From Lysobacter auxotrophicus (lineage in GTDB: Bacteria > Pseudomonadota > Gammaproteobacteria > Xanthomonadales > Xanthomonadaceae), in the NCBI RefSeq assembly GCF_027924565.1, contig NZ_AP027041.1:3286001-3350000 (forward strand): a stretch of DNA of 64,000 nucleotides. Reading direction: 5' to 3'. This document shows positions 1-59,466 of this stretch, piece after piece. The translations under genes and the position numbers were made by a program. A model generated the notes under the pieces. The model was not told the DNA's origin. It saw only the letters and a program-made list of their open reading frames with translations, and did no database searches. Every line of letters starts with the position of its first letter. Positions within the stretch are counted from its first letter, which is position 1.

Positions 1-2882
1 ACGACATCACGGCGCAGGGCCTGACCTCGGTCGGCGACGTGATCCAGAACATCACCGCCAACGGTTCGACGCTCAACAGCACCTACAACAACGGCGGTAA
101 CGGCGAGACGCGCGTCAACCTGCGCAACCTCGGTTCCAACCGCACGCTGGTGCTGGTCAACGGTCGTCGCTGGGTTGGTGGCACGGGCCTGGGCGGCGCG
201 GTCGACCTCAACACGATCCCGACCGCCGCGGTCGAGCGCATCGAAGTGCTGAAGGACGGCGCATCGACGATCTACGGTTCCGACGCCATCGCCGGCGTGG
301 TCAACGTGATCCTGCGCCAGAACTTCGAAGGCGCCGAAGCCAACGCCTACATCGGCCAGTTCGACAAGGGCGACGGTACCCGCCAGGCCTACGACTTCAT
401 CATCGGCACGAGCGGCGACCGCTTCTCGGCGATGCTGGGCTACGGCTACGTCAAGGAAGAGCCGGTCATGGCCGGCGACCGCTACATCTCGAAGGAGCCG
501 ACCTACACCACCGGCAACTTCTTCGGTTCCGGCACCAGCCCGAACGGCCGCTTCGGCGCCGGCGAAGGCTGCCAGCGCCAGAACGCCGCCGGCCAGCTGC
601 TGTGGACGCGCGCCGACGGCCAGCCGGGCTTCGTGACGACGCCGCAGTTCGACGAGGAAGGCAACGAGCTGCAGGCCCGCGTGGCGCGTGGCGCCAAGCT
701 GCCGGGTTCGGCCCTCTGCGTTCCGGGCACCCTCACCTACGACGGCCCGGGCACGGCCGCCCGTCCGTACGTGCCGGGCGCCGACGCGTACAACTTCGCT
801 CCGGAAAACTACCTGCTCACGCCGCAGGAGCGCCGCTCGGTCTTCGGTAACGCCTCGGTCGACATCACCGACGACATCCGCTTCAAGACCACGGTGACCT
901 ACAACGAGCGCGTCTCCGAGCAGCTGCTCGCCGCCATGCCGGTCACGCTCGGCCAGCCGGTCGCCGGCACGCCGGCGGGCACGGTCGTCATCGACGCCGA
1001 CAACGCCTACAACCCGTTCGGCGAAGACATCACCCGCATCAGCCGTCGTACGACGGAAACCGGCGGTCGTTCGTTCAACCAGGACGTGCGCACCTTCGCG
1101 ATGACGGCCGGCCTGGAAGGCACGCTGAACTTCGCCGAGAAGTACTTCGACTGGGAAGCGGGCTACTTCCGCGGCCAGAACAAGGCGAACAACACCACCT
1201 TCGGCCTGTTCAACGTCGAAGCCCTGCGCAGCGCGCTCGGCCCGTCGTTCGTCGACGCCGACGGCACGCTCAAGTGCGGCACCTCGGCCGATACCGTCAT
1301 CGACGGCTGCGTCCCGATGAACTTCCTCGGCGGCGTGGGCGGCATCACGCAGGAAATGCTGGACTACTCGACGTTCACCGCGCACGACGAGTACAGCTAC
1401 ACCCAGCAGTCCTACTACGCCAACATCAGCGGCGACCTGTTCGCGCTGCCGGGCGGCCCGCTGGGCTTCTCGTTCGGCCTGGAACACCGCACCGAAGACG
1501 GCTACGACTCGCCGGACGCGCTGATCAACTCCGGCAGCACCACGGGCAACGCGCGCACCGCGACCGCCGGTGGTTACAAGCTGGACGAGGCCTACCTCGA
1601 ACTGGCCGTGCCGGTGCTGAGCGACGTGCCGTTCGCCAAGCTGCTCGACTTCTCGCTGGCCACGCGCTACTCGGACTACTCGAACTTCGGCGACACGCTC
1701 AACAGCAAGTTCGGTTTCCGCTGGAAGCCGATCGAAGACCTGCTGGTCCGCGGTAACTGGTCCGAGGGCTTCCGCGCTCCGTCGATCGCCGAACTGTTCG
1801 CCGGCCAGGCCGACTCGTTCCCGACCCTGTCCGACCCCTGCAACAGCTCGAACTTCGCGACGCTGGCCCCGCAGGCGCAGGCACAGTGCTTGGCCGAAGG
1901 CGTTCCGGCTGGCGGCTACCGCCAGGACAGCCAGCAGATCCGCATCACCGTCGGCGGCAACCCGGACCTGAAGCCCGAGAAGGCCGAGTCGACCACGTTC
2001 GGCTTCGTCTACAGCCCGAGCTACGTCGAAGGCCTGGACGTGTCGCTTGACTGGTGGACGATCAAGATCGAAGACGCCATCACCACCATCGGTGGCGAAA
2101 CGATCATCCAGCAGTGCGTGGATTCCGGCGGCGCCGGCCAGACCTGCGGTCTGTACACCCGTCAGTCCGACGGCAACATCCTGACCCTGATCAACACCAC
2201 CACGAACATCGGTGGCACCAAGGTCGAGGGTTACGACCTGACCGTCGGTTACCGCCTGCCGGAAACCGCGTGGGGCAAGTTCAGCTTCACGTGGGACACG
2301 ACCTACCTGGCCGAGCAGAAGGACGACATCGACGGCGACGGCGTGTACGGCGAAGACAACCAGCTCGCCCCGGCGATCGGCCAGCCGCTGCACTACAACG
2401 AAGGCGGCAACCTCGTCGGCGAGTACCTGCAGAACGACAACAAGTGGCGCATCCGTTCGAACCTGATGGCCCGTTGGGAACTGGGCGACTGGGGCGCGAC
2501 CTGGAGCGTTCGCTACTACTCGTCGCAGGACGAGTCGTGCAGCCCGGCGTACGAAGAGTACGGCTTCGGCTACCTGTGCACCGACGGCGACCGCCGTATC
2601 GGCATCCCGACCGACGCCAACAACAACGGCGTGTGGGACGGCACCGCCGGCGGCGACACGATCGAGTCGATCCTGGATCCGCAGCACCACATCGGCGCCA
2701 CCACGTACCACGACGTTTCGGTCTACTGGAACGCCCCGTGGAACGCGAAGATCGCCATCGGCGTCAACAACCTGTTCGACAAGAACCCGCCGATCGTGCT
2801 CAACGCGTTCGCCAACACGTTCGACCCGCAGTACGAGCTGCCGGGCCAGTTCATCTACTTCCGCTACTCGCAGAAGTTCTGA
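1..2882 (+). CDS. TonB-dependent receptor, 5' end outside window
   Basis: Outer-membrane active transporter energised by TonB/ExbBD; the substrate cannot be read from sequence. The frame is open from base 3 to the TGA at 2880-2882 (about 959 residues seen). Alignment with the complete paralogue immediately downstream indicates that roughly 72 N-terminal residues (signal peptide and start of the plug) are missing. Visible are plug features (LVLVNGRRWVGG, IYGSDAIAGVVNVI), a long beta-barrel, and the terminal aromatic signature FRYSQKF expected by the BAM complex. It is followed by its own intrinsic terminator. The family in Lysobacter-like bacteria is about 1000 residues, so this is a full-size member. 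The adjacent oxygenase suggests the pair belongs to a receptor/modifying-enzyme locus (inference). Confidence 0.93.
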   Translation, partial: DITAQGLTSVGDVIQNITANGSTLNSTYNNGGNGETRVNLRNLGSNRTLVLVNGRRWVGGTGLGGAVDLNTIPTAAVERIEVLKDGASTIYGSDAIAGVVNVILRQNFEGAEANAYIGQFDKGDGTRQAYDFIIGTSGDRFSAMLGYGYVKEEPVMAGDRYISKEPTYTTGNFFGSGTSPNGRFGAGEGCQRQNAAGQLLWTRADGQPGFVTTPQFDEEGNELQARVARGAKLPGSALCVPGTLTYDGPGTAARPYVPGADAYNFAPENYLLTPQERRSVFGNASVDITDDIRFKTTVTYNERVSEQLLAAMPVTLGQPVAGTPAGTVVIDADNAYNPFGEDITRISRRTTETGGRSFNQDVRTFAMTAGLEGTLNFAEKYFDWEAGYFRGQNKANNTTFGLFNVEALRSALGPSFVDADGTLKCGTSADTVIDGCVPMNFLGGVGGITQEMLDYSTFTAHDEYSYTQQSYYANISGDLFALPGGPLGFSFGLEHRTEDGYDSPDALINSGSTTGNARTATAGGYKLDEAYLELAVPVLSDVPFAKLLDFSLATRYSDYSNFGDTLNSKFGFRWKPIEDLLVRGNWSEGFRAPSIAELFAGQADSFPTLSDPCNSSNFATLAPQAQAQCLAEGVPAGGYRQDSQQIRITVGGNPDLKPEKAESTTFGFVYSPSYVEGLDVSLDWWTIKIEDAITTIGGETIIQQCVDSGGAGQTCGLYTRQSDGNILTLINTTTNIGGTKVEGYDLTVGYRLPETAWGKFSFTWDTTYLAEQKDDIDGDGVYGEDNQLAPAIGQPLHYNEGGNLVGEYLQNDNKWRIRSNLMARWELGDWGATWSVRYYSSQDESCSPAYEEYGFGYLCTDGDRRIGIPTDANNNGVWDGTAGGDTIESILDPQHHIGATTYHDVSVYWNAPWNAKIAIGVNNLFDKNPPIVLNAFANTFDPQYELPGQFIYFRYSQKF

Positions 2883-2907
2883 TCGGTACGAACGGCACTT
2901 GCGTCAT

Positions 2908-2939
2908 AACTACGGCCCCGAAAGGGGCCGTAGTTTTTT
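2908..2939 (+). terminator. Intrinsic terminator after first TonB receptor
   Basis: Perfect 12-bp stem (AACTACGGCCCC / GGGGCCGTAGTT) with a GAAA tetraloop, followed by a T run. The loop and stem core are nearly the same as in the terminator after the paralogous receptor, so the terminator was probably duplicated with the gene. Confidence 0.93.
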
Positions 2940-2945
2940 GCGATC

Positions 2946-3112
2946 GTTTCAGAAATGAAACAATGCGCGTTCAGACTGTTGAAGATTAACAACACTTTAA
3001 GTATTCGCTCTGCAGGTCTACCATCGGGCCCGACCTTGCCGGACTTGGCGCGGTTGTTTGCTCCGCCCGGCGGGTTCCCATGGGAACAACTTTGACCGAC
3101 TTGGAGAGAGCG
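2946..3112 (+). promoter_or_regulatory. Upstream region of second TonB receptor
   Basis: An AT-rich stretch (2945-3005) carries a perfect inverted repeat GTTTCA-GAAA-TGAAAC at 2946-2961. The stretch is the likely promoter region, but no convincing -35/-10 pair was found. The ribosome-binding site GGAGAG lies at about 3103-3108, spaced correctly for the ATG at 3113 and not for the upstream in-frame ATG at 3080. Confidence 0.35.
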
Positions 3113-6100
3113 ATGAATCCGAAAACAACGAAGCTCCGGGACGCAATTCGCGTGACGCTCGCCCTGGGCACAACGACGGCGGCGGGCATGGGTGCGGCAC
3201 AGGCCCAGGAACCCGCCCCGGCCTCCCCGCAGGAAGCGACCACCCTCGATCGCATCGAAGTCACCGGTTCGCGCATCAAGCGCGCCGACATCGAGACCTC
3301 GCAGCCGATCTTCTCGCTCAGTCGCGACGACATCACCGCGCAGGGCCTGACCTCCGTCGGCGACGTGATCCAGAACATCACCGCCAACGGTTCCACGCTC
3401 AACACGACCTTCAACAACGGCGGTAACGGCGACACCGGCGTCAGCCTGCGCAACCTCGGCGCGAACCGGACGCTGGTACTGGTCAACGGCCGTCGCTGGG
3501 TCGGCGGCGCGTCCGGCACCGGCCTCGGGGGACAGGTCGACCTCAACTCCATCCCGACCGCTGCGGTCGAGCGCATCGAAGTGCTGAAGGATGGCGCGTC
3601 CGCGATCTACGGTTCGGATGCCATCGCCGGCGTGGTCAACGTGATCCTGCGCCAGAATTTCGAAGGCGCCGAAGCGAACGCGTACCTCGGCGTGTACGAC
3701 AAGGGCGACGGTTTCCGCCAGTCGTACGACTTCACCATCGGCAGCGCATCCGACCGCTTCGCCGTGATGCTGGGCTTCGGCTACGTCAAGGAAGAACCCG
3801 TGTGGGCGGGCGACCGCTACATCTCCAAGGAGCCGATCTACACGACCGGCGCGGCGCTGGGCGGCAGTTCGACCACGCCGAACGGCAATTTCTCCATGCG
3901 TTTCGGCGAGTGCTTCACCGATCCGGACGATCCGGACTCGGCCACGCGCTGCCGTCCCGACGGCACGCCCGGCAGCTTCACCTACAACCCCGGCGCGGGC
4001 GCAGCCAACTGGCGCAACTTCACCAACAACGACATCTACAACTTCGCGCCCGACAACTACCTGCTCACGCCGCAGGAACGCCGCTCGGTGTTCGGCAACG
4101 CGTCGGTGGACATCACCGACAACGTCCGCTTCAAGACCACGCTGACCTACAACGAACGACAGTCCGAACAGCTGCTGGCGGCCATGCCGATCACGCTCGG
4201 CGTGCCGGTCGCAGGCACCAACGCGGGCAACGTCGTCATCAGCGCCGACAGCATCTACAACCCGTTCGGCGAGGACATCGACTGGGTGCAGCGTCGCGCC
4301 GTGGAAACCGGCGGTCGCCGGTTCGAGCAGGACGTGCGCACCTTCGCGATGAACGCCGGGTTCGAAGGCACGTTGAACTGGGGCGAGAAGTACTACGACT
4401 GGGAAGCCGGTTACTTCTACGGTCGCAACAAGGCCAACAACACCACCAACGGCCTGTTCAACGTGATCTCGCTGGGTAACGCGCTCGGTCCGTCGTTCAT
4501 CGATGCCGAGGGCGTCCCGACCTGCGGCACGCCCGACGACCCGATCGCCGGCTGCGTACCGATGAACATGCTCGGCGGCGTGGGCAGCCTCACGCAGGAC
4601 ATGCTCGACTACACCACCTTCGTCGCGCACGACGAGTACAGCTACACGCAGAAGACCTACTACGCCAACATCGGCGGCGATCTGTTCGACCTGCCGGGCG
4701 GTCCGCTCGGGTTCTCGGTCGGCCTGGAACACCGCAGCGAAGACGGCTACGACTCCCCCGACGCACTGATCAATTCCGGCAACACCACCGGCAACGCGCG
4801 CACCGCGACATCCGGCGGTTACACCGTCGACGAGGCGTACCTGGAACTCGCGATTCCGGTGCTTGCCGACGTGCCCGGCGCGAAGCTGCTCGACTTCTCG
4901 CTGGCCACGCGTTACTCGGACTACAGCAACTTCGGCGACACGCTCAACAGCAAGTTCGGTTTCCGCTGGAAGCCGATCGAAGACCTGCTGATCCGCGGCA
5001 ACTGGTCCGAAGGCTTCCGTGCACCGTCGATCGCCGAACTGTTCGCCGGCCAGGCCGACTCCTTCCCGCAGGTCAGCGACCCCTGCAACCAGACCAACTT
5101 CGGTAACCAGACCGCGCCCGCGCAGGCCCGCTGCCGCGCCGAAGGCGTGCCGGAGGGCGGCTACGCGCAGAACAACACGCAGATCCGCATCACCGTCGGC
5201 GGCAACCCGAACCTGCAGCCGGAAAAGGCCGAATCGACCACCGCCGGCTTCGTCTACAGCCCGAGCTTCGTCGAAGGCCTCGACGTTTCGCTGGACTGGT
5301 GGAAGATCAAGATCGAGGACGCGATCACCACCGTCGGCGCCGCGCCGATCATCCAGCAGTGCATCGACTCCGGCGGCACCGGCTCGACCTGCGATCTCTA
5401 CAGCCGCCAGCCCGGTGGCGAGATCCTGACGCTGCTCAACACCACGGTGAACATCGGCGGCACCAAGGTCGAAGGTTGGGACATGACGGTGAGCTATCGC
5501 CTGCCCGAAACCTCGTGGGGCAAGTTCAGCTTCACCTGGGATACGACGTACCTGTCCGAGTTCCTCAACGACCTGGACGGCGACGGTCGCTACGGCGAGG
5601 ACGTCTTCCGCGAGCCGGCCATCGGCAGCGAAATGGAGGCCAACGAAGGCGGCAACCTGGTCGGCGAATACGACGGCCCGAACCTGCTCAACTACTGGCG
5701 CATCCGTTCGAACCTGGCGGCGCGCTGGGAGAAGGGCGACTGGGGCGCGACCTGGAACGTGCGCTACTACTCCGACCAGACCGAGCCCTGCCAGACGTTC
5801 GAGGACTACGGTTACGGCTGGCTGTGCACGACCACCGACCGCTTCCGCAGCCAGCCGACCGACGTCAACGGCAACGGCGTGTGGGACGGCGAGGCCGGCG
5901 GCGACGGCTTCACCACCGTGGCGGCGAACGAGCACCACGTCGGTGCCGCGACCTACCACGATGCGAGCGTCTACTGGAACGCACCCTGGAACGCGAAGGT
6001 GACTTTCGGCATCAACAACCTGTTCGACAAGAACCCGCCGATCGCCTACACCTCGTTCGCCAACTCGTTCGATCCGCAGTACGACCTGCCGGGACGCTTC

Positions 6101-6130
6101 ATCTACTTCCGGTATTCGCAGAAGTTCTGA
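3113..6130 (+). CDS. TonB-dependent receptor, complete paralogue
   Basis: Outer-membrane TonB-dependent transporter of 1005 residues, substrate unknown. The start at 3113 is preferred over 3080 because GGAGAG precedes it and because it opens directly into a signal peptide ending AAQAQ at about residue 32. A TonB-box-like segment (IEVTGSRIKRADI) lies near residues 48-60. The plug follows, with LVLVNGRRWVGG and IYGSDAIAGVVNVI, and then the beta-barrel ending FRYSQKF. It shares long blocks of near-identity with the receptor at 1-2882, so the two arose by tandem duplication. They diverge most in two segments, at about 3870-4010 here and in the last extracellular loops around 5560-5950. The ~1000-residue length and the N-terminal pattern resemble receptors found beside 2OG oxygenases and TPR sulfotransferases in related genomes. 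Own terminator follows. Confidence 0.95.
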   Translation: MNPKTTKLRDAIRVTLALGTTTAAGMGAAQAQEPAPASPQEATTLDRIEVTGSRIKRADIETSQPIFSLSRDDITAQGLTSVGDVIQNITANGSTLNTTFNNGGNGDTGVSLRNLGANRTLVLVNGRRWVGGASGTGLGGQVDLNSIPTAAVERIEVLKDGASAIYGSDAIAGVVNVILRQNFEGAEANAYLGVYDKGDGFRQSYDFTIGSASDRFAVMLGFGYVKEEPVWAGDRYISKEPIYTTGAALGGSSTTPNGNFSMRFGECFTDPDDPDSATRCRPDGTPGSFTYNPGAGAANWRNFTNNDIYNFAPDNYLLTPQERRSVFGNASVDITDNVRFKTTLTYNERQSEQLLAAMPITLGVPVAGTNAGNVVISADSIYNPFGEDIDWVQRRAVETGGRRFEQDVRTFAMNAGFEGTLNWGEKYYDWEAGYFYGRNKANNTTNGLFNVISLGNALGPSFIDAEGVPTCGTPDDPIAGCVPMNMLGGVGSLTQDMLDYTTFVAHDEYSYTQKTYYANIGGDLFDLPGGPLGFSVGLEHRSEDGYDSPDALINSGNTTGNARTATSGGYTVDEAYLELAIPVLADVPGAKLLDFSLATRYSDYSNFGDTLNSKFGFRWKPIEDLLIRGNWSEGFRAPSIAELFAGQADSFPQVSDPCNQTNFGNQTAPAQARCRAEGVPEGGYAQNNTQIRITVGGNPNLQPEKAESTTAGFVYSPSFVEGLDVSLDWWKIKIEDAITTVGAAPIIQQCIDSGGTGSTCDLYSRQPGGEILTLLNTTVNIGGTKVEGWDMTVSYRLPETSWGKFSFTWDTTYLSEFLNDLDGDGRYGEDVFREPAIGSEMEANEGGNLVGEYDGPNLLNYWRIRSNLAARWEKGDWGATWNVRYYSDQTEPCQTFEDYGYGWLCTTTDRFRSQPTDVNGNGVWDGEAGGDGFTTVAANEHHVGAATYHDASVYWNAPWNAKVTFGINNLFDKNPPIAYTSFANSFDPQYDLPGRFIYFRYSQKF

Positions 6131-6154
6131 ACCTCGTCCGCGATGGTTCATTCG

Positions 6155-6184
6155 CCACGGCCCCGAAAGGGGCCGTGGTTTTAT
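6155..6184 (+). terminator. Intrinsic terminator after second TonB receptor
   Basis: Perfect 10-bp stem CCACGGCCCC / GGGGCCGTGG with a GAAA loop, followed by TTTTAT. It resembles the terminator at 2908-2939. Confidence 0.92.
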
Positions 6185-6236
6185 CGGGGTTCGGCCGGGC
6201 TACACTCGAGGTTCCGCAACGCGCCGCAGCGATCGC

Positions 6237-6896
6237 ATGTCCTTCGAGATCCGCCCCGTCTTCTCGGTTCCCTTCGCGCAGGACGTGCTGCCCGAGGCCA
6301 GCGCGATCAATCCGCAACTGCGCGCCTTGATCCTCGCGCGCGAAGCCGAAGGCGCGCGCTACGCGAACCCGAATCCGTCGTTGCAGCAGCAGCCGGGCGT
6401 GTTCGAAAGCGACTTCAACCTGTTCGCGTGGCCGCAGGCCTGCATCCAGCAGCTGCGCCAGTTCTGCTGGGCGACGCTCGGCCGCACCATCGCCGACCTC
6501 AACGGCTACAGCGCCGAGGAGATGAAGCAGCTGCAGATCTTCTCGCACACCTGGTTCCATGTGACGCGAAAGGGCGGCTTCACCATCAACCACACGCATC
6601 CGATGGCGTCGTGGTCGGGCGTGTATTGCGTGGACCCGGGCACGACGCCGGAAGACCGGCCCGATTCGGGCGTGCTGCGCTTCCACAACCCGCATCACTA
6701 CAGCAACTACTTCCTCGACGCCGGCAACGCGCGGCTGCGTCCGCCGTATCACCACGGCACCTGGAACGTGCGTTTCCAGGCCGGGCAACTGGTGCTGTTC
6801 CCGTCGTGGCTGCAGCACGAGGTCATGCCGTTCCATGGCGATGACGAACGCATCACCATCGCGTTCAACTGCTGGTTCGGCATGAAGAACGGCTGA
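6237..6896 (+). CDS. Putative 2OG-Fe(II) oxygenase (PF13759/TIGR02466 type)
   Basis: 219-residue member of the putative 2-oxoglutarate/Fe(II) oxygenase family; members are expected to hydroxylate a protein, peptide or small molecule, but the substrate is unknown. The family pattern is visible in order: NHTHPMASWSGVYCV (residues 118-132, metal-binding His), SGVLRFHNP (144-152), LVLFPSWLQHEVMPF (185-199, second His) and ERITIAFN (204-211, with the Arg expected to hold 2-oxoglutarate). A possible -10 box TACACT sits at 6201-6206, about 30 nt before the ATG, just after the preceding terminator, so the gene is probably transcribed on its own. It lies directly behind two TonB receptors, and a second, unrelated 2OG oxygenase lies on the opposite strand at 11765-12349. 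Confidence 0.85.
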   Translation: MSFEIRPVFSVPFAQDVLPEASAINPQLRALILAREAEGARYANPNPSLQQQPGVFESDFNLFAWPQACIQQLRQFCWATLGRTIADLNGYSAEEMKQLQIFSHTWFHVTRKGGFTINHTHPMASWSGVYCVDPGTTPEDRPDSGVLRFHNPHHYSNYFLDAGNARLRPPYHHGTWNVRFQAGQLVLFPSWLQHEVMPFHGDDERITIAFNCWFGMKNG

Positions 6897-6938
6897 GCGA
6901 AGCCGGCGCGCCTCGCCTGTCCGGGCGATACAAACATG

Positions 6939-6967
6939 AAAAAAGCCGCCAAAAAGGCGGCTTTTTT
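6939..6967. terminator. Bidirectional intrinsic terminator
   Basis: AAAAAAGCCGCC-AAAAA-GGCGGCTTTTTT: perfect stem flanked by A and T runs, so it works in both directions. It separates the oxygenase from the convergent DUF4097 operon. Confidence 0.93.
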
Positions 6968-6996
6968 GCATTCAGGCATCGCGCCCGATCAAGCGA

Positions 6997-7914
6997 TCAC
7001 TCCAGCCGCAACGTCGCGTCGCCCGAAAAACTTTCGATCGATACATCGCCATCGCCGTTGCCGTAACGGTGGTCGAAGCTCGAACCCGGGCCGTGTTTGG
7101 GCCGGTTGATCTGCGCGCCCGGCGCAGTCAGGTCGCCGCTGAAACTCTCGCCGCGCACGTTCGCCGACAGGCTCCTGGGCAGCGTGAGGTCGAGGTCGCC
7201 GCTGACGGTTTCCAGCGTGACGCGGCCGTTGTTCGCCAGCGCGGTGTTGATGCGGATGTCGCCCGACACTGTAGAGCCCGACAGCTTCTGCACGCGCGTG
7301 TTGAGCGTGGACACATCGACGCGGCCGGACACCGTTTCGACGCGCACCTCGCCGTCGAGGCGGCCGCGCAGGTTGAGGTCGCCGCTCACCGTTTCCGCGC
7401 TGACGCGGCTGGAATTGATGGTGAGCATCAGGTCGCCGCTGACGCTGTCGAAGTCGGCTTCGCGCGGCGCGGCGGCGACGGTGACCTCGCCGCTGACCGA
7501 GTCGACCGACAGCTCGTTCGACGCGACACCTTCGATGTTCACGTCGGCGGAGACCACGTCGATGTCGAGGTCGGCGCGGATCGGCACCATCAGCACCAGG
7601 TCGGTCGGCTCGCTCTTGTCGCTTCCGCCGAACACGCCCATGCCGCTGCGGTTGGGGTACTTCACGCGGATGCTGAGGTGCTCGCGGTCGCCGTCGATTT
7701 CCAGGCGTTCCACGCCCTGACCGAGGCTGCCTTCGATCTTCACTTCCGGCTTGTCCCAGGCGCGGACCTGGACGTTGCCCTTGAGGTTTTCGATCTCGAC
7801 CCGGCCGCGCGGGTCCAGCGGACGCGACTCGTTGATCGGCGTGGCGGCGAAGGCGCCGTGCGCCGTCAGCAGGGCCAGGCCGAATGCGAGGCGTTGGATG
7901 TGGGCGCGGGTCAT
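6997..7914 (-). CDS. DUF4097-family beta-repeat envelope protein
   Basis: 305-residue exported protein; the exact role of the family is not known, but it commonly travels with ECF sigma/anti-sigma pairs in envelope-stress loci. The start at 7914 follows GGAG and opens into a signal peptide (HGAFAA cleavage region near residue 23). The body is a run of short beta-strand repeats of the form D/E-(T/S)VSG-(D/E)-(V/L), seen about eight times (for example SVSGEV, TVSGDL, SFSGDA), the hallmark of a beta-solenoid-like DUF4097 domain. It is the last gene of the reverse-strand operon, 74 bp after the probable anti-sigma gene, and the bidirectional terminator at 6939-6967 follows. An earlier in-frame ATG exists near 7992 but would bury the signal peptide. 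Confidence 0.85.
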   Translation of the reverse strand: MTRAHIQRLAFGLALLTAHGAFAATPINESRPLDPRGRVEIENLKGNVQVRAWDKPEVKIEGSLGQGVERLEIDGDREHLSIRVKYPNRSGMGVFGGSDKSEPTDLVLMVPIRADLDIDVVSADVNIEGVASNELSVDSVSGEVTVAAAPREADFDSVSGDLMLTINSSRVSAETVSGDLNLRGRLDGEVRVETVSGRVDVSTLNTRVQKLSGSTVSGDIRINTALANNGRVTLETVSGDLDLTLPRSLSANVRGESFSGDLTAPGAQINRPKHGPGSSFDHRYGNGDGDVSIESFSGDATLRLE

Positions 7915-7988
7915 GGACGTTCTCCGGGAATCGGGCTTCGGTTCTTGGGGTTGCAGGTGGGTGGATCGCGGCATCTGGATGGCTACCG

Positions 7989-8507
7989 TCATGCGTAGGC
8001 GACACGTTGCGCAAGTGCGAGTCGGCGCGCGTAGGTCCTGCGAAGCTGCTCCAGCAGCAGGCGCGAGTTGGGGTCGTGGGCCAATGCGTCGAGGATCAGT
8101 GCCGCATTGCGATCGAGTTCGTCGAACGCCGGCTGCAGTTCCGCCGGCGGCCGGCCGGGGCCGACTTCGATCATCGCGGCCTGGTACTGGCGCTGCATGC
8201 CGTGCGCTTCCAGCTGCACGAGCGTTTCGCGCGGCGCGGATTCCGCGCCCGGATTCGCCGGACCCTGCGCGCCGTCGCGCCACAGGCCGATCATGCCGAC
8301 GGCCAGTACGAGCGTGGCGGCCATCGCGACCGGCGCGATCCAGCGCGGCCGCTGCGGTGCGACCTGGCGCGGCTGCGCCTGGATGCGCTGCGCGATGCCG
8401 GCCCACAGGTCGCGTTCGGGCGCTTCGTCGCGGCGCATCGCCCGAAGCTGCCAGCGCAGCGCATCGGGCAGGTCGTCGCGGGTGTCGTCAGTGTGCTTGG
8501 TGTTCAT
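7989..8507 (-). CDS. Probable membrane anti-sigma factor
   Basis: 172 residues with a cytoplasmic N-terminal part, one transmembrane helix near residues 56-76 (APVAMAATLVLAVGMIGLW) and a periplasmic C-terminal helical part. That is the usual topology for a regulator that holds an ECF sigma factor at the membrane. No zinc-binding HxxxCxxC anti-sigma motif is present, so the call rests on topology and context: the ATG overlaps the sigma-factor stop codon by four bases (ATGA), giving translational coupling. Downstream is the DUF4097 protein, the likely output of the system (inference). Confidence 0.7.
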   Translation of the reverse strand: MNTKHTDDTRDDLPDALRWQLRAMRRDEAPERDLWAGIAQRIQAQPRQVAPQRPRWIAPVAMAATLVLAVGMIGLWRDGAQGPANPGAESAPRETLVQLEAHGMQRQYQAAMIEVGPGRPPAELQPAFDELDRNAALILDALAHDPNSRLLLEQLRRTYARRLALAQRVAYA

Positions 8508-9100
8508 CCGTGTGCCTCCAACCGGTCGCGCAACAGGTTGCGCGCGCGATGCAATTGCGCTTTCGAACTGCCGACCGCCATGCCGAGTTCGGCGGCGATC
8601 TCCTCGTGCTTCCAGCCTTCCACGTCGTACAGGACCAGCACCGCGCGGGCGCGCGGCGGCAGGCTGGCGACGGCGCGGTCCAGGTCCATGGACAGCGCGG
8701 TGGTATGTCCGGCCGAATCGGCGCTGCCGATCAGGTCGAAGATTTCCTCGTCCGAGTCGCCCTCGTCCTGAGGCCGGCTGCGGCGGCTGCGCAGTTCCAT
8801 CAGCGCGGTGTTGACGGCCAGCCGGTGCAGCCAGGTCGAGAACGACGACTCGAACCGGAACGCCGGCAACGCCTGCCACGCGCGGACGAAGGCTTCCTGC
8901 GTCAGGTCCTCGGCACGGGCGCCGTGGCCGCCGACCAGCCGGGCGATCACGCCATGGACGCGGCCGGCATGGCGGCGATACAGCGCCTCGAAGGCCCGCA
9001 TCTCGCCGCGCGCGGCCGCCGCCACCAGGCTGCGCTCCTCGCTGCCGTCGTCGGGGACGGCGGGGGCATCGGTCAGGCTTTCGGTCACGACGGTCAGCAT
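8504..9100 (-). CDS. ECF-type RNA polymerase sigma factor
   Basis: 198-residue sigma-70-family regulator. Region 2 is visible (FEALYRRHAGRVHGVI, then AEDLTQEAFVRAWQ), followed by a linker and region 4 with a helix-turn-helix (LPPRARAVLVLYDVEGWKHE, then EEIAAELGMAVGSSKAQLHR). The length matches ECF sigma factors. It starts 32 bp after the end of the TPR-sulfotransferase gene on the same strand and overlaps the probable anti-sigma gene by four bases. No ECF target promoter was found with confidence in front of any gene here, so its regulon is unknown; the DUF4097 gene and the sulfotransferase operon are the natural candidates. Confidence 0.92.
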   Translation of the reverse strand: MLTVVTESLTDAPAVPDDGSEERSLVAAAARGEMRAFEALYRRHAGRVHGVIARLVGGHGARAEDLTQEAFVRAWQALPAFRFESSFSTWLHRLAVNTALMELRSRRSRPQDEGDSDEEIFDLIGSADSAGHTTALSMDLDRAVASLPPRARAVLVLYDVEGWKHEEIAAELGMAVGSSKAQLHRARNLLRDRLEAHG

Positions 9101-9132
9101 GTCCCTATGGATGCGCCGAACGGAGCGCGGGT

Positions 9133-10713
9133 TTAAGGGGCCGGCGTCGGCTCACGCCAGGGGGCCAGGCCTTCGAGCAGCGGACCCAGCTTGTCGGCGT
9201 ACGGCGCCCAGGCTGCCTTGCGGTCCTTGATGATGCCGCCACGCATCTGCGGGCTGCTGGCGGTCGCCACGGCGCCGGGACGGTCCAGTGTGGTCGCCGC
9301 CGTGTCCCACGGCAGGCCGCAGAACGCGAGCACCTGTCGCATCACGCCTTCGGGGTCGGCCACCAGCGCGTCGTAGCGTACGTCCAGGATCCGGCCCGGC
9401 ATCACCGCGTGCCAGTGGTCCATCAGCCGCCGGTACTGGCCGTACCACTCGGCCAGTTCGCGCTGGTCGTAGGAGAACGTATTCACGTCGGAGAACATCG
9501 TGCGCAGGTTCGAAAAGCACGTGTCGACCGGGTCGCGCACCATGTGCAGGATGCGCGCGTGCGGCAGGGCGCGGGCGATGAAGCCCAGGTTGAGGAAGTT
9601 CGACGGCAGCTTCTCGGTCAGCACCGCCCTGCCCTTCGTGCGCGCGGCCGTGTGCTCCAGGAAACGCCGGCCGAGCGCGGCGTAATCGACCTTGTCCGCC
9701 CGCCGCACCAGTTCCGCGTCGAGCACGCCGCGGCTGCGGTAGTCGGCGAAGTAGCGCATCTGCGAGGTGAACGAGTACGTCTCGCCGCCATCGGTGACGT
9801 CCGGATGCCCGCCCAGCAGTTGCTCCAGCAACGTGCTGCCGGAGCGGTGCATGCCGACGACGAACACCGGCCGGTACGGCGCCGGTTCGTCGGCGTGGGC
9901 GCGCCCGGCGTCGACGAACGCGGCATCGCACGTCTTCATCAGGCCTTCGAACATGCGTCGTGCGTCGGTCCGGTCGTGCGGCGTGAGCTGGCGCTTGGTG
10001 CGGCAGGCGTGGTCGAGCGCCTGCCAGGATTCCTCGTAGGCGCCGATGTCGTGCGTCTCGTTGTGCACGGCGTAGGCGAGGTACACGCGGCTTTCGCTGC
10101 CCGGCGGCACGCGCGGGATGAGCGCCTTCATGCGCGCGACGTGGTTGTTGTCCGGCGTCTGCTTGCGCAGGCGCGAAAGCACCCAGTGCGCCTGCGCGTA
10201 AGTCGGCAGGATGGCGATGCACTGCTCCAGTTCGCGATCGGCCTCGTCCATCTGGCCGAAGAACATGTGCACCACGCCGCGGAAATAGCGCGCCGGCGCG
10301 TGCCGCGCGTCGCGCTGCACGGCAAGGTCCAGCAATTGCATCGCCAGTTCGTTCTCGCCGCTGGTGCTCACCAGCATGGCGACTTCCGTCAGCCACGCAG
10401 CGGAACGCCGCTCCTCCCAGCGCGAATGCGCCAGGCACTCCATCAGCAACGCGGGCTCGTTGAACAGACGAAGCGCGCGCGCGAGGTTCAGTACCGCCTC
10501 GTCGCCTTGCGGCCGCGCCGCCAGCGCGCGCACGGCGTAGTCGCGCGAATCGCGATAACGGCCGAGCGACAGCGCCATGCGCGAGGCGCGCAGCATGGCC
10601 ATGACGTGGCCGGGGTCGTGTTCGAGCACGCCGTCGTAGGCGGACAGCGCGGCAGCCCACTGGCCCTGCTTGGCGTAGGTCTCGGCGCGCTGCCAGAGCG
10701 TTGCGACGTTCAT
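9133..10713 (-). CDS. TPR-repeat sulfotransferase
   Basis: 526-residue two-part protein. Residues 1 to about 270 form helical TPR-like repeats (pairs of helices with G/A-Y/F spacing), a protein-binding platform. Residues from about 280 form a PAPS-dependent sulfotransferase domain with the 5'-phosphosulfate-binding loop FVVGMHRSGSTLLEQ at 283-297, a glycine-glycine-glutamate turn after it, and a 3'-phosphate-binding segment ILHMVRDPVDTCFSNL in the last third. Members of this family sulfate unknown acceptors, and tyrosine sulfation of peptides is one precedent for bacterial sulfotransferases. Its ATG overlaps the stop of the upstream sulfotransferase-like gene (ATGA), so the two proteins are probably made together. 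Neighbouring 2OG oxygenases and TonB receptors suggest a shared modification function (inference). Confidence 0.9.
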   Translation of the reverse strand: MNVATLWQRAETYAKQGQWAAALSAYDGVLEHDPGHVMAMLRASRMALSLGRYRDSRDYAVRALAARPQGDEAVLNLARALRLFNEPALLMECLAHSRWEERRSAAWLTEVAMLVSTSGENELAMQLLDLAVQRDARHAPARYFRGVVHMFFGQMDEADRELEQCIAILPTYAQAHWVLSRLRKQTPDNNHVARMKALIPRVPPGSESRVYLAYAVHNETHDIGAYEESWQALDHACRTKRQLTPHDRTDARRMFEGLMKTCDAAFVDAGRAHADEPAPYRPVFVVGMHRSGSTLLEQLLGGHPDVTDGGETYSFTSQMRYFADYRSRGVLDAELVRRADKVDYAALGRRFLEHTAARTKGRAVLTEKLPSNFLNLGFIARALPHARILHMVRDPVDTCFSNLRTMFSDVNTFSYDQRELAEWYGQYRRLMDHWHAVMPGRILDVRYDALVADPEGVMRQVLAFCGLPWDTAATTLDRPGAVATASSPQMRGGIIKDRKAAWAPYADKLGPLLEGLAPWREPTPAP

Positions 10714-11738
10714 GTCCACTCCTGCGGCGGTTGCATCGGCAGCGGCGTTCCCAGGTACGGAAGGACAAAGCGTTCGGCCCAGTCGCGGGCGCGGGCCAGT
10801 TCGGTACCGAACCGCGCCTGCACCATCCGCGCTTCCTGTTCGCGTTGCTGCGCGCTGTATTCCACGGCCATCGCCTTCGCGTTGCGATGGGCGACCTCGC
10901 GGGTGCGCTCGCGCAATGCGTTCTCCGGCGATGACCATCGCCACCAGCGTGCGCAGGCGACGACGACGTTTTCCGGATCGTCAGCAAGCGTGGCGAAATC
11001 CAGCACGCGCACGCGTTCGCCGAACCCGCGCACGAGGCCGGCGAGCAGATCGCGTTGCGCCGCCCACTGCAGCGCCACCGCGCACAGCAGGTCCGGCGGC
11101 TGCAGCGCCTGCGCGGGTAGCCGCGCGTGCAGCGTTCCGGCGCGCAGCGCGCGCTCGGCGAGCTCGGGCACTTTCGCCTGCGTTTCCGGGGTTTTCTTGA
11201 GGTTCGAGACGAGGAAATCGTCCAAGGTCGAGGTCAGCAGCACCGCGCGGCTGTCCGGCGTGACACGCAGCAGGTCCGGCGCGATGTTCAGCGCGGCATG
11301 CGTGGCCTTCACCAGCACGTCGCCATCGGGCGTCCATGGGCGCGACAGCAGCCGCACGGCGATGTCGCAGAGCCCGTCGATCGACCAGCCCGCGTGCCGC
11401 GCGTCGGCCAGTCGCCGCAGGACCAGCGGCTCCTTCAGCGCTACGTGGTGCGCGGGCAGGTGCGCGGCGCGCGCGAGCAGCGTCGAACCGCAGAACGAGG
11501 TGTGGAACAACCATGCCGGGGTGCGCTGCGGCAGCATCGCGAAGCGGTCGGCCGCGATCGGCTCGACGGACGCAAGCGTCGCGTCCAGTCGTGTGTCGAG
11601 GAAGGTCGAACGCTCCAGCACGCCGGCGTCGAGCATCGCCATGTCGAAGCGGCGATCGGGTACGTGCAGGTCCACGGGGAACCACCGCGCGTCGCTCGCG
11701 TGCGTCGGCAACGTGGCTTCGAAGCTCGTGGTTTCCAC
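10710..11738 (-). CDS. Sulfotransferase-like P-loop protein
   Basis: 342 residues from a GTG start at 11738, chosen because GGGGAGG lies just upstream; no ATG is suitably placed. A P-loop resembling the sulfotransferase phosphosulfate loop, HTSFCGSTLLARA, occurs at residues 79-91, followed by a KEP turn at 102-104. A helical C-terminal region with YSAQQREQEARMVQARFG closes the protein. Sequence is far from the TPR-sulfotransferase that follows, so this is a separate subfamily and its activity is unproven. It sits 26 bp after the 2OG oxygenase gene and overlaps the next gene by four bases, indicating a tightly coupled three-gene set. Confidence 0.75.
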   Translation of the reverse strand: METTSFEATLPTHASDARWFPVDLHVPDRRFDMAMLDAGVLERSTFLDTRLDATLASVEPIAADRFAMLPQRTPAWLFHTSFCGSTLLARAAHLPAHHVALKEPLVLRRLADARHAGWSIDGLCDIAVRLLSRPWTPDGDVLVKATHAALNIAPDLLRVTPDSRAVLLTSTLDDFLVSNLKKTPETQAKVPELAERALRAGTLHARLPAQALQPPDLLCAVALQWAAQRDLLAGLVRGFGERVRVLDFATLADDPENVVVACARWWRWSSPENALRERTREVAHRNAKAMAVEYSAQQREQEARMVQARFGTELARARDWAERFVLPYLGTPLPMQPPQEWT

Positions 11739-11764
11739 GCGCCCTCCCCGGGTCGGATGTGCGG

Positions 11765-12349
11765 TCAGGCCGGGGCGCGCTGGCGTTCGAACTTGATCGC
11801 GAACGTGTAGCGCGGCGCGTAGCAGATGCGATTGGGCGGACGGCCGACGTGCTTGATCGCACCGTCGAAGATCACCAGCCTGCCCGGACGCGGCTGCACC
11901 GCGGCGGCCACTTCGTCGTTCGCGTCGAAGAACATCGTCTCGCCGCCCCACTCCAGGTCCCACTGCTCGCACAGGTACCACAGCGCGGTGAGGTCATGCT
12001 GCTCGGGCAGGCAGTCGGTATGACTGAAAAGCATGTCGCCGAACGTGGCGACGTTGGTGTACGCGCGGTACGGTCGGTAGCCGTATTCGCGCGTGGTGAA
12101 CCCCAGCACCGCGCGCGCGGTGACCTCGAAGATCGGCTGCTGCACGAGCGCCTCGAGCTTCACTTCCGTGGCCCAGTGCTTGTGCTCCGCCGTCTCAGGC
12201 CGGGCGACTTCGGTGCGGGTGAACGCGGCCTTCGCCAGGCCGCGCACGTAGTCCGCCACGTTGGGCAGGTGCCCGTCGAACACCCGCAGCGGGCGGCCGT
12301 CGATCTCGAATTCACGACTGGCCGCGAGCGCGGCGGGGTTCGGTGTCAT
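11765..12349 (-). CDS. 2OG-Fe(II) oxygenase, prolyl-4-hydroxylase-like
   Basis: 194-residue double-stranded beta-helix dioxygenase. The iron-binding facial triad is visible as H110-x-D112 in FSHTDCLPEQHDL and H167 in FDGAIKHVGRPP. R180 (PRYTFAIKF) fits the 2-oxoglutarate-binding position. GGETMFFD (135-142) is typical of the P4Hc/2OG-FeII_Oxy_3 group. Expected chemistry is hydroxylation of a peptide or protein side chain; the substrate is unknown. It begins 7 bp after pckG on the same strand and is followed by two sulfotransferase-type genes, so it may be cotranscribed with pckG. It is not related in sequence to the oxygenase at 6237-6896. Confidence 0.88.
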   Translation of the reverse strand: MTPNPAALAASREFEIDGRPLRVFDGHLPNVADYVRGLAKAAFTRTEVARPETAEHKHWATEVKLEALVQQPIFEVTARAVLGFTTREYGYRPYRAYTNVATFGDMLFSHTDCLPEQHDLTALWYLCEQWDLEWGGETMFFDANDEVAAAVQPRPGRLVIFDGAIKHVGRPPNRICYAPRYTFAIKFERQRAPA

Positions 12350-12356
12350 GCAGGCC

Positions 12357-14162
12357 TCAGTTGCCCAGTGCCTTGGCGATGCGCTGCTGCTCGTCCTTCA
12401 ACGCCTGCGGCATGCGCGGGCCGTATTCGTCGAGGTATTCGCCGATGCTGGCGAACTCCGCCTGCCAGCCCTCGCGCTCGAAACCGAACAACTTCGCGCG
12501 CGCCTCGTCGGTCAGCTGCACGCCGTCGAGGTTGATCTCGTCGTCCTTCGGCAGGTGGCCGATCGGCGTTTCGACCGAACCGGCCTCGCCCTTCACGCGC
12601 TGGATCATCCACTCCAGCACGCGCAGGTTCTCGCCGAACCCCGGCCACAGGAACGAGCCGTCGTCGCCCTTGCGGAACCAGTTGACGTGGAAGATCTTCG
12701 GCAGGTTCGCGCCGGCCTGGTCGAACGAGAGCCAGTGCGTGAAGTAGTCGGCGAAGTTGTAGCCGCAGAAGGGCTTCATCGCCATTGGATCGCGGCGCAT
12801 CACGCCGACCGCGCCCGTGGCGGCGGCGGTGGTTTCCGACCCCATCGCGGCGCCGACCAGCACGCCGTGCGTCCAGTCGCGCGCTTCGAACACCAGCGGC
12901 ACCAGCGACGGGCGGCGACCGCCAAAGACGATCGCGCTGATCGGCACGCCCGCGGCGTTCTCGGCTTCCGGCGAGTAGCTCGGGCACTGCTTCGCGCTCA
13001 CGGTGAAGCGGGAGTTGGGATGTGCCGCCGGGCCCTTCGCCGGGTCGTAGGCGTTGCCGCGCCAGTCGGTGACCGGCGTCTGGCCGTCGTCCAGGCCTTC
13101 CCACCACGGCTGGTTGTCGGCGGTGACGCCGACGTTGGTGAAGATGGTGTTGCTCTGGATCGACTTGAGCGCGTTCGGGTTCGACTTGGCCGAGGTGCCC
13201 GGCGCGACGCCGAAGAAGCCGGCTTCCGGGTTGATCGCGTAGAGGCGGCCGTCCGCGCCCGGGCGCATCCAGCAGATATCGTCGCCGACGGTCCAGACCT
13301 TCCAGCCCTTCGCGCGATAGCCTTCCGGCGGAATCAGCATCGCCAGGTTGGTCTTGCCGCACGCCGACGGGAACGCCGCGGCGATGTAATGCGTCTCGCC
13401 CTGCGGGTTTTCCAGGCCGAGGATCAGCATGTGCTCGGCGAGCCAGCCTTCCGAACGCGCCTGGTGCGAGGCGATGCGCAGCGCATGGCACTTCTTGCCC
13501 AGCAGCGCGTTGCCGCCGTAGCCCGAACCGAACGACTTGATCGTAAGTTCTTCCGGGAAATGCATGATGAAACGGCGCTCCGGATCGAGCTCCCCGATGG
13601 AGTGCAGACCCTTCACGAACGTGCCTTCGCGCTCGATGCGCGCCAGCGACGGCGCGCCCATACGCGTCATGATGCGCATGTTCGCCACGACGTACGGGCT
13701 ATCGGTGATCTCCACGCCGCAACGCGACAGCGGCGAATCGATCGGGCCCATGCAGTACGGGATCACGTACATCGTGCGGCCCTTCATGCAGCCGTCGAAG
13801 AGCGCGTCCATCTTCGCGTGGCCGTCGGCCGGGGCCATCCAGTGGTTGTTCGGACCCGCGTCGTCCTGCCTGCTCGTGCAGACGAAGGTGAGGTGCTCGA
13901 CACGAGCGACGTCGTCCGGATGCGAGCGGTGCAGGTAGCTGTTCGGATGCGTGGACTCGTTGAGCTTGACGAGCGTGCCGTCGGCCTCCATCTGCGCGAT
14001 GAGCGCGGCGTTCTCGGCATCGCTGCCGTCGCACCAGTGGATCGCGTCGGGCTTGGTCAGCGCGGCGACTTCGGCGACCCAGGCGTTGAGGGCGGCGAGC
14101 TTGCTGCCCTGGCTCCCCGGCGCGACGGCAGGTTTGGCGACGTCATGGGAAATGGCATTCAT
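12357..14162 (-). CDS. pckG: Phosphoenolpyruvate carboxykinase (GTP)
   Basis: Converts oxaloacetate and GTP to phosphoenolpyruvate, GDP and CO2 (EC 4.1.1.32), the entry step of gluconeogenesis, in the cytoplasm. The 601-residue length is normal for the GTP class. The kinase P-loop with the reactive cysteine is at 264-275 (FPSACGKTNLAM, C268), and the FGSGYGGNALLGKK substrate-binding segment is at 211-224. A strong ribosome-binding site (GGAGG) precedes the ATG. The TetR gene lies 47 bp upstream on the same strand and a 2OG oxygenase gene starts 7 bp downstream. Association with a fatty-acid-type TetR regulator and fadE suits growth on lipids, where PEPCK is needed (inference). Confidence 0.97.
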   Translation of the reverse strand: MNAISHDVAKPAVAPGSQGSKLAALNAWVAEVAALTKPDAIHWCDGSDAENAALIAQMEADGTLVKLNESTHPNSYLHRSHPDDVARVEHLTFVCTSRQDDAGPNNHWMAPADGHAKMDALFDGCMKGRTMYVIPYCMGPIDSPLSRCGVEITDSPYVVANMRIMTRMGAPSLARIEREGTFVKGLHSIGELDPERRFIMHFPEELTIKSFGSGYGGNALLGKKCHALRIASHQARSEGWLAEHMLILGLENPQGETHYIAAAFPSACGKTNLAMLIPPEGYRAKGWKVWTVGDDICWMRPGADGRLYAINPEAGFFGVAPGTSAKSNPNALKSIQSNTIFTNVGVTADNQPWWEGLDDGQTPVTDWRGNAYDPAKGPAAHPNSRFTVSAKQCPSYSPEAENAAGVPISAIVFGGRRPSLVPLVFEARDWTHGVLVGAAMGSETTAAATGAVGVMRRDPMAMKPFCGYNFADYFTHWLSFDQAGANLPKIFHVNWFRKGDDGSFLWPGFGENLRVLEWMIQRVKGEAGSVETPIGHLPKDDEINLDGVQLTDEARAKLFGFEREGWQAEFASIGEYLDEYGPRMPQALKDEQQRIAKALGN

Positions 14163-55869: not shown

Positions 55870-55981
55870 GTCAAGGATTAAGCACAGGCGCAACAACCCC
55901 CGCGAGCAGCAACTGCCGGCGCGCCATCCATAGGTTCGACAGCGCGAACAAGCTCGACCTCATAGCGCAGTAAGTCTCCGA

Positions 55982-56698
55982 TTATGGATTCATCCCCTTC
56001 AGTCCTGGATCAGAGAAGCATCTGCTAAGGGGCTGACTCTGGACATCGCTAACTTCAAAGATCCTTCGTGCCACCTTGTTCACTTTCGCGCGAACACATG
56101 CGCAGCCGTAACCGGCAGTATCGTCCGTGCGAACCCAGTGCCCACGACGAAAACCGCCTTGTCCTAGAAGCCCACCATCCGGTCCCTTACGGGTGACCGA
56201 CCAACTCCCATCGCGATCACGCAGAGATACCTCGCTAGACCTACTTAGAGAAAGCCAGCCGCATCGCTTCTCCTCCCGGTTCTCCGCAATCAAGCTCGCC
56301 ATTCTAGGACCGTAAAAGGCTCCACCTGTCGGCACGGTCAGCAGCTTCCAGCTCAGCTGCTCACCGTTGCGAGACAATAGGGCCACACCGCCCGTAGCAC
56401 CAAAAGTTGAACTAAATTTGACGGAAGCAGTTTTTCCGTCCGTGCTCACCACGCCAGACAAATTGCTCTCTGCTGGATCGCAGTCAATCTTCGCGCCATG
56501 ACGCGTGACGTAACAGTAACTACCCATCAACCTCTTATCTTTAGCAATAAGATGAAGCTCGAATGTGGAGTACGGCGTCTCCCCAGCCGAGTCGCCTTGA
56601 GTTACCTCGACCCAGTCTCCAGAGAATCGATCAGGAAGGTCACCGGCCAGGCACCACTGGGGCATAGATAGCAAGAGCGCAAACGCAAAGCGTTTCAT
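55982..56698 (-). CDS. Exported protein, DUF4087-like C-terminal part
   Basis: 238 residues with a signal peptide (FALLLSMPQWCLAGD, cleavage near 18). The C-terminal ~110 residues show the pattern GWLSLS, WSVTRKGPDG, GHWVRTDDTAGYGCACVRA, RIFEVSDVQSQPLSRCF, close to DUF4087, a small periplasmic domain often next to T6SS or polymorphic-toxin genes. Two or three disulfides are likely. GC content is clearly lower than surrounding genes. It is translationally coupled to a preceding short ORF and lies at the distal end of the vgrG gene group, so an immunity or accessory role is possible (inference). Confidence 0.72.
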   Translation of the reverse strand: MKRFAFALLLSMPQWCLAGDLPDRFSGDWVEVTQGDSAGETPYSTFELHLIAKDKRLMGSYCYVTRHGAKIDCDPAESNLSGVVSTDGKTASVKFSSTFGATGGVALLSRNGEQLSWKLLTVPTGGAFYGPRMASLIAENREEKRCGWLSLSRSSEVSLRDRDGSWSVTRKGPDGGLLGQGGFRRGHWVRTDDTAGYGCACVRAKVNKVARRIFEVSDVQSQPLSRCFSDPGLKGMNP

Positions 56699-56971
56699 GG
56701 CGAAGCTCGCAGACAGTCGTCGACACGGTTATGCCAGCCTTTCAAGAACTTCACCTTCGCATTAGGAATGCCCTTACTATCCACAGTGAGCGAGGTGTAG
56801 TACGCCTTTCTTGAAACACCTATTCGTTGAACAAGATGCTCCTGGTCAGCGATCGAGTTTATTGCGTCAATCGTGATTCTCCCCATCACATTATTGACGG
56901 CGACCCAAACGTTCGCTCCGACTTGTTGCCAGCGAACGCACGCTGATACCCACTGCGCCCTTGTCAGTCAT
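56695..56971 (-). pseudogene. Small ORF with probable frameshift, T6SS island
   Basis: The ATG at 56971 overlaps the stop of the lipoprotein gene (ATGA), but its frame ends after 23 codons. One base out of frame, from 56961 on, a protein-like sequence runs to 56695: AQWVSACVRWQQVGANVWVA, then VNNVMGRITIDAINSIADQE, ending LKGWHNRVDDCLRASP. Removing one base in the AAGGGC run (56956-56962) joins them into a ~91-residue protein. If no frameshift exists, an ORF of 64 codons begins at 56889. Either form overlaps the next gene by four bases. Function not recognised. Confidence 0.5.
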
Positions 56972-57552: not shown

Positions 57553-57561
57553 GCCAGGACC

Positions 57562-57785
57562 TCAATGTCCGTCATCGGACCAGTGGGGCGGGTCGCTTGC
57601 GAGCTTCACGACGCCGTAGCTCTGACCGACCGTATGTTGATCACTTGAAGAGGAAATTCGGCAGGCGGCACCGCTAGCGTCGCGAACATCACTGCCAACC
57701 GCTCCGGAGATGGTCATGTCAATCGCACGGCGCTCGGTATGCCGGGAGGTAAGCGCTGCGGAATGGGCCATTGCATAGCCCGCTA
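57562..57785 (-). pseudogene. C-terminal remnant of M15-like peptidoglycan peptidase effector
   Basis: One base out of frame with the end of vgrG, an ORF continues to 57562. It has an ATG at 57771 (69 residues), but similarity-like sequence begins a few codons before it. It contains SRHTERRAIDMTI (zinc ligands H and D in the SxHxxxxAxD pattern) and SDPPHWSDDGH (third zinc ligand, PHW pattern), as in D,D- and L,D-peptidases of the M15 group used as cell-wall effectors. The N-terminal half of the domain is missing, so it is probably inactive. The remnant directly follows the VgrG deletion junction near 57785. Confidence 0.62.
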
Positions 57786-59386: not shown

Positions 59387-59466
59387 GCTTTCGTCCTTTG
59401 CGCAGGAGCACCGAAGTCTCCTGACCTCTTGCAACGTGTTCTATAGGAGTGTTTCGTGGCCCGGCC

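Follow-up and report, generated by a model that had tools for sequence, protein, structure and literature searches.

The 64,000-nucleotide stretch of the Lysobacter auxotrophicus genome analysed here (assembly GCF_027924565.1, contig NZ_AP027041.1, positions 3,286,001 to 3,350,000; hereafter the window) opens with a group of genes that places two sulfotransferase-type proteins and two 2-oxoglutarate (2OG)-Fe(II) oxygenases next to tandem TonB-dependent receptors (TBDRs). A sequence-only reading had described tandem receptors, a PF13759-type oxygenase, an overlapping opposite-strand run of a prolyl-4-hydroxylase-like oxygenase and two sulfotransferase-type genes (PST and TPRST), and a sigma/anti-sigma/DUF4097 group. 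Open reading frame calls and family searches confirmed that all of these genes are present and placed as described. Genes were called with a simple codon-usage caller, which missed some genes at other loci. The features are as follows.

1..2882, plus strand: TonB-dependent receptor 1 (TBDR1), 3' part, with PF00593 and PF07715 (Plug) domains; its start lies 199 bases before the left edge of the window (L003:17802).
3113..6130, plus strand: TonB-dependent receptor 2 (TBDR2), a paralogue of receptor 1 in the receptor tree, without an STN domain (PF00593, 2.1e-37; PF07715, 1e-22).
6237..6896, plus strand: 2OG-Fe(II) oxygenase of the PF13759/TIGR02466 type (75.7 bits, cut-off 27; TIGR02466 66.8 bits, cut-off 62.5).
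6997..7914, minus strand: accessory DUF4097 protein whose start resembles a signal peptide (PF13349, 2.9e-22).
7989..8507, minus strand: putative anti-sigma factor, assigned by position, with one hydrophobic segment and a 4-base overlap with the sigma gene.
8504..9100, minus strand: extracytoplasmic function (ECF) sigma factor (PF04542, 7.2e-19; PF08281, 1.1e-17; TIGR02937).
9133..10713, minus strand: tetratricopeptide repeat (TPR) sulfotransferase, TPRST (PF13469, 1.8e-54).
10710..11738, minus strand: PST, a divergent protein with a predicted P-loop sulfotransferase fold (AF2 model), GTG start.
11765..12349, minus strand: 2OG-Fe(II) oxygenase with a predicted prolyl-hydroxylase-like fold (PF13640, 4.9e-11).
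12357..14162, minus strand: GTP-dependent phosphoenolpyruvate carboxykinase (PEPCK), a housekeeping neighbour (PF00821, 4e-159).

Read from the right, the minus-strand run consists of PEPCK, the PF13640 oxygenase gene after 7 bp, PST after a further 26 bp, TPRST with a 4-bp overlap, and then the ECF sigma, anti-sigma and DUF4097 genes. Because PEPCK ends only 7 bp before the oxygenase gene, an operon of PEPCK-oxygenase-PST-TPRST(-sigma genes) is likely. Just left of the window lie a third tandem paralogous TBDR (L003:14497-17451) and an XOO1806-family gene (L003:13324-14184). No evident signal peptide was seen on sequence inspection of the PF13640 oxygenase, PST, TPRST or the PF13759 oxygenase.

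Of 200 genomes sampled from the order, 28 encode a member of the PST family, and a scan of named genomes, made with an alignment of closer relatives as the full alignment was too diverse, yielded 80 loci from Lysobacter and its relatives (Lysobacterales), Sphingomonadales, Caulobacterales and others. The nearest named relatives of the PST in the window belong to Lysobacter soli (84% identity) and L. arvi (83%). Within 6 kb of PST, a TBDR was encoded in 56 of the 80 loci, a 2OG oxygenase of one of three kinds in 50 and TPRST in 38; these counts are lower bounds (the TPRST of locus L138, for example, was missed by the gene caller and found with a hidden Markov model, HMM), and many of the loci come from related species and hence are not independent. 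With about 35 TBDRs in the single 4.16 Mb contig of the host genome, chance alone would place about 0.1 in an interval of this size. In a receptor tree, PST-linked receptors grouped in related clades, separate from the majority of the host genome's other receptors. Gene order, orientation and chromosomal context of the set vary among loci, and PEPCK adjoins it in other lineages too. The co-occurrence on which the sequence-only reading depended thus extends beyond this genome, recurring across Lysobacterales and Sphingomonadales, and since the set is conserved in other genomes a chance assembly is excluded.

The sigma system, which had been counted as part of the arrangement, fared differently. 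ECF sigma, anti-sigma and DUF4097 genes were found near PST in only 9-12 of the 80 loci (DUF4097 in 10), and the anti-sigma-like protein (7989-8507), named from its position, had no Pfam or NCBIfam match. The STN domain (PF07660) expected on a receptor in FecI/FecR/TBDR signalling had no match on the complete receptor 2, while the N-terminus of receptor 1 lies outside the window. As these genes are absent from most related loci and receptor 2 carries no STN domain, they are treated here as accessory and outside the conserved core.

Within that core, TPRST combines an N-terminal TPR region with its sulfotransferase domain, and among solved enzymes the tyrosylprotein sulfotransferases were closest by sequence (E about 1e-12). 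Key sulfotransferase residues comprise a basic residue in the 5'-phosphosulfate-binding (5'-PSB) motif, a Glu or His base between the motifs and a Ser in the 3'-phosphate-binding (3'-PB) motif (PMC6637879). In TPRST, R290, E311, R393 and S401 do not vary across 19 relatives and match TPST2 in the alignment, providing the basic 5'-PSB residue, catalytic Glu/His and 3'-PB Ser of a tyrosylprotein sulfotransferase. TPRST therefore resembles this class and is a putative protein-tyrosine sulfotransferase; an APS kinase for the supply of 3'-phosphoadenosine-5'-phosphosulfate (PAPS) is encoded in the host genome.

PST had no Pfam match in a profile search. An AlphaFold (AF2) model built from 60 relatives (mean predicted local distance difference test, pLDDT, 95.5) has a sulfotransferase fold, with TPST1/2 ranking first (Z 14.2-14.9), polyketide sulfotransferase domains following without clear separation (Z 13.4-13.6; CurM 13.6), and heparan or small-molecule sulfotransferases at Z about 12. 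The model thus places PST within the PAPS sulfotransferase superfamily by predicted fold; E103, K144, S178 and K288 are retained, and a PST paralogue in the host genome passes the PF13469 threshold.

In the PF13640 oxygenase, H110-x-D112, H167, R174 and R180 are invariant, corresponding to the HxD...H iron ligands and the 2OG-binding Arg. Its model (pLDDT 81) is closest in fold to the hypoxia-inducible factor (HIF) prolyl hydroxylase PHD2 and a Pseudomonas prolyl hydroxylase (Z about 15). In Foldseek, certain oxygenases of small molecules (PolD, PasI, FtmOx1) rank not far behind, and the match of the protein to the FlmC family NF052475 (138 bits) falls under the curated cut-off of 240. The PF13759 oxygenase has H119, H121, H194 and R205 invariant in 14 relatives and passes the curated cut-offs of both 2OG-FeII_Oxy_5 and TIGR02466. 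Taken by their closest relatives, the PF13640 oxygenase, PST and TPRST all point to polypeptide substrates.

Because TPRST resembles tyrosine sulfotransferases, receptor tyrosines were examined against its presence. In a first scan, which covered 26 receptors from sphingomonads, one Tyr/Trp position was conspicuous within the Tyr columns (p 0.019 on the tree) but not significant when all residues were considered (0.33); that scan had L138 mislabelled as lacking TPRST, and 60 further receptor loci were then added. The second scan covered 83 non-redundant sphingomonad receptors and 2,647 residue features, with a local TPRST defined by an HMM score >450. The strongest feature was Tyr633 (L117 numbering), present in 15 of 16 receptors with a local TPRST versus 7 of 67 without, and the second strongest was Tyr198 (13/16 versus 8/67). 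Among 2,000 simulations under the Mk model on the tree, no Tyr column was equally strong, and the top two features were both Tyr in 0.15%. When TPRST was instead scored genome-wide, Tyr633 was found in 17 of 21 receptors with the enzyme and 5 of 62 without (Pagel test p=4e-5, uncorrected; as Tyr633 was the strongest among about 28 Tyr columns, correction would give about 1e-3). Both residues stand at the start of a strand, right after a short loop, and are predicted from common TBDR topology to be exposed on the outside.

The association has exceptions in that some Tyr633 carriers have no TPRST. Where Tyr carriers had no local TPRST, 2 of 3 had one elsewhere in the genome (intact in L132, interrupted by a stop in L139), and the same holds for the Trp carriers L111 and L141, so that this comparison is neutral. 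In the L139 genome the TPRST orthologue (G602:C56:28101-28934) is broken by a TGA stop, and the receptor still has both Tyr633 and Tyr198. Two other candidates were rejected. A Tyr in a Cys-closed receptor loop ('FEDYGYGWLC' / 'CVGYYSxNC'), considered as a sulfation site, was neither conserved nor associated with TPRST, and when Asp-hydroxylase presence was compared with receptor residues the top feature was an Asp, but many unrelated residues scored alike, which was read as clade structure.

Related arrangements occur elsewhere in the host genome. It encodes two TPR-sulfotransferases, and the other one (G000:151257) is convergent with a different TBDR about 40 bp away (L196:7324-11667, G000 about 148-153 kb). 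A TBDR of the same clade as the window receptors has an Asp-hydroxylase gene (G000:3579740) directly beside it, a PF05118 Asp/Asn-hydroxylase adjoins a PF03567 Sulfotransfer_2 gene 8 kb upstream of receptor 3 (L003:5558-6810), and a 2OG oxygenase gene adjoins each of the two PST paralogues or lies within 4 kb of it, the one at L035 being identified by homology and motif only. The pairing of a sulfotransferase with an oxygenase therefore recurs in this genome (L003:5558-6810, L035, L036), which suggests that a hydroxyl group may be made and then sulfated. Stand-alone oxygenases are also encoded (G000:20188, 2585863, 816370).

Other enzyme classes were also seen beside a receptor. At L203:5058-11827 (G000 about 3371-3378 kb), a TBDR is followed by SapC-like, JmjC/cupin-like and tryptophan-halogenase-like genes, named by sequence inspection, and the halogenase-like protein has weak matches to the protein-modifying flavoenzymes QhpG and LodB. 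Farther along the window, positions 55900-60000 have a lower G+C content (0.56-0.62) and carry VgrG-like (57719-59113) and Hcp-like (59467-59889) genes, recognised by eye.

The locus is thus a conserved set of two sulfotransferases and two oxygenases, cytosolic and protein-modification-like, that is tied to TBDRs in gene content and neighbourhood, with conserved residues in its enzymes and folds predicted from models. We give a probability of roughly 0.5 to the reading that this set hydroxylates and sulfates exported envelope polypeptides, and a lower one to modification of the receptor, the leading candidate client for TPRST; the catalysis, sulfate donor, reaction order, substrate and effect on transport are what we infer. 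Under this proposal, the core set (the PF13640 oxygenase, PST, TPRST and the PF13759 oxygenase) would work in the cytosol on side chains, so that an exported envelope polypeptide would be hydroxylated and sulfated before its secretion, with TPRST holding the unfolded protein through its TPR domain and PAPS serving as donor. For TPRST of Sphingomonadales, at least, the neighbouring TBDR would be the likeliest client; its presumably outward-facing tyrosines may carry sulfate and tune ligand binding. As to the substrate, the sequence-only reading had offered a peptide, the receptors or an imported ligand; a peptide or receptor is consistent with the nearest relatives of the three enzymes, and receptor tyrosines track TPRST in Sphingomonadales, while no positive evidence emerged for an imported ligand, a possible substrate. 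The broader generalisation, that TBDRs of Lysobacterales and Sphingomonadales are modified in the cytosol before export, with Tyr sulfated and other side chains hydroxylated by TPR-sulfotransferase/PST/2OG-oxygenase sets, is put forward only tentatively and may well not hold.

Several observations weigh against the receptor as client and against the assumed chemistry. In the same 2,000 simulations, some residue of any kind was as strong in 16%. TPRST presence on the receptor tree requires about three changes by parsimony, and hence few independent events, and the added receptors with TPRST fell mostly in clades already sampled. Trp occupies position 633 despite a TPRST orthologue in L138, L272, L111 and L141, the last three of which also lack Tyr198. 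In Lysobacterales receptors the position of Tyr633 is Ser, Asn, Gly or Pro, and for the window's own receptor the tyrosine pattern is therefore only an analogy. Four Sphingomonas loci (L118, L126, L128, L137) encode a TPR-Asp-hydroxylase, PST, TPRST and short secreted proteins of the family C3, described below, yet no TBDR nearby. Finally, PST has Phe (His in a sister group) in place of the canonical basic 5'-PSB residue and no Arg in its 3'-PB motif, and because these residues are absent its sulfate donor is uncertain.

An alternative that we consider unlikely is that the enzymes act on a secreted peptide or small secreted protein, which after modification is bound or imported by the receptor. 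C3 proteins would be one example, being 72-108 residues long with a signal-peptide-like start and two conserved cysteines in a C...TGSL...C.T...W motif (TGSL or TGSR), and having no Pfam or NCBIfam name. At 32 of the 80 loci, 1-4 tandem copies of their genes were found no more than 6 kb from PST (e.g. L117:7135-8515, L118:10824-11424, L066:33-1519); all confident matches in genomes G202-G204 adjoin PST; and in an independent lineage (L055, L066) three C3-like genes in tandem precede an oxygenase and PST. Together with the four receptor-less loci, this makes C3 proteins candidate substrates in Sphingomonadales. However, neither the window nor any PST locus of Lysobacter contains a C3 gene, the top match of the host genome is weak (G000:645330, E 2e-5) and lies away from such enzymes, the motif contains no conserved Tyr or Pro, and the receptor tyrosine correlation would be left unexplained. 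Where they are encoded, C3 proteins would be probable additional clients of the proposed envelope-modifying set. The TonB-box region of sphingomonad receptors (e.g. L117, near residue 50) reads VTGSLIRNPN, similar to the TGSLV of the neighbouring C3, possibly by coincidence.

It is likewise improbable that the enzymes tailor a small molecule, such as a siderophore-like ligand or a lipid, that is exported and re-imported through the receptors. Small ligands are the usual cargo of TBDRs, natural-product tailoring is common for both 2OG oxygenases and sulfotransferases, and an oxygenase (3181587) beside a siderophore-type TBDR (G000:3179654) in the host genome resembles the known PiuC pairing; the small-molecule enzymes among the fold neighbours of the PF13640 oxygenase fit as well. 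Yet no genes for non-ribosomal peptide synthetase, polyketide synthase or NRPS-independent siderophore (NIS) scaffolds were recognised in the core or in recurrent neighbour clusters, the best structural relatives act on proteins, TPRST has a TPR domain, and tyrosine covariation in the receptors would not be predicted. That the genes are unrelated neighbours kept by inherited synteny (in the PEPCK region in Lysobacterales and the ClpB to purD region in Sphingomonadales) is very improbable, for although flanking housekeeping genes are conserved too and many loci come from related species, the set occurs in several chromosomal contexts with changed order and orientation, and the second TPRST of the host genome also lies beside a TBDR; the neighbourhood enrichment that would speak against this reading was largely observed.

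Known systems offer partial parallels for the envelope-polypeptide proposal. RaxST of Xanthomonas is a cytosolic, PAPS-using, TPST-related sulfotransferase that acts on an exported polypeptide, RaxX (PMC6637879); the set proposed here from sequence differs in its TPR domain, second sulfotransferase, oxygenases and linkage to TBDRs, and at this locus no RaxX-like leader-peptide precursor or RaxA/RaxB exporter was found between PEPCK and TBDR1. Metazoan TPST1/2 are matched by TPRST in sequence, including the key Arg, Glu, Arg and Ser, and by PST in predicted fold (Z 14.9), but they act in the Golgi, whereas the enzymes here would be cytosolic, TPRST carries TPRs and PST departs at its 5'-PSB and 3'-PB residues. 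PHD2/EGLN and Pseudomonas PPHD, an EF-Tu hydroxylase, share the predicted fold and the HxD...H and Arg residues of the PF13640 oxygenase, which is about 15% identical and sits in a TBDR locus. A further parallel is found in TBDR loci with SapC, a JmjC-like cupin and a tryptophan halogenase, such as the one in the host genome, in which enzymes of side-chain-modifying type flank a TBDR but belong to other classes. In the open-access literature we found no paper on the combination of a TBDR with SapC, halogenase, sulfotransferase or oxygenase.

If the proposal is correct, it would reveal a level of receptor maturation in Gram-negatives that has so far gone unrecognised. TBDRs, which in these organisms rank among the outer-membrane proteins of highest number, would then bear sulfate and hydroxyl modifications not usually looked for in proteomics. 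It would also provide functions for PST, for TPR-sulfotransferases and for several receptor-adjacent PF13640, PF13759 and PF05118 enzymes, and Tyr633 and Tyr198 of the sphingomonad receptor are named residues at which such marks could be sought by mass spectrometry.

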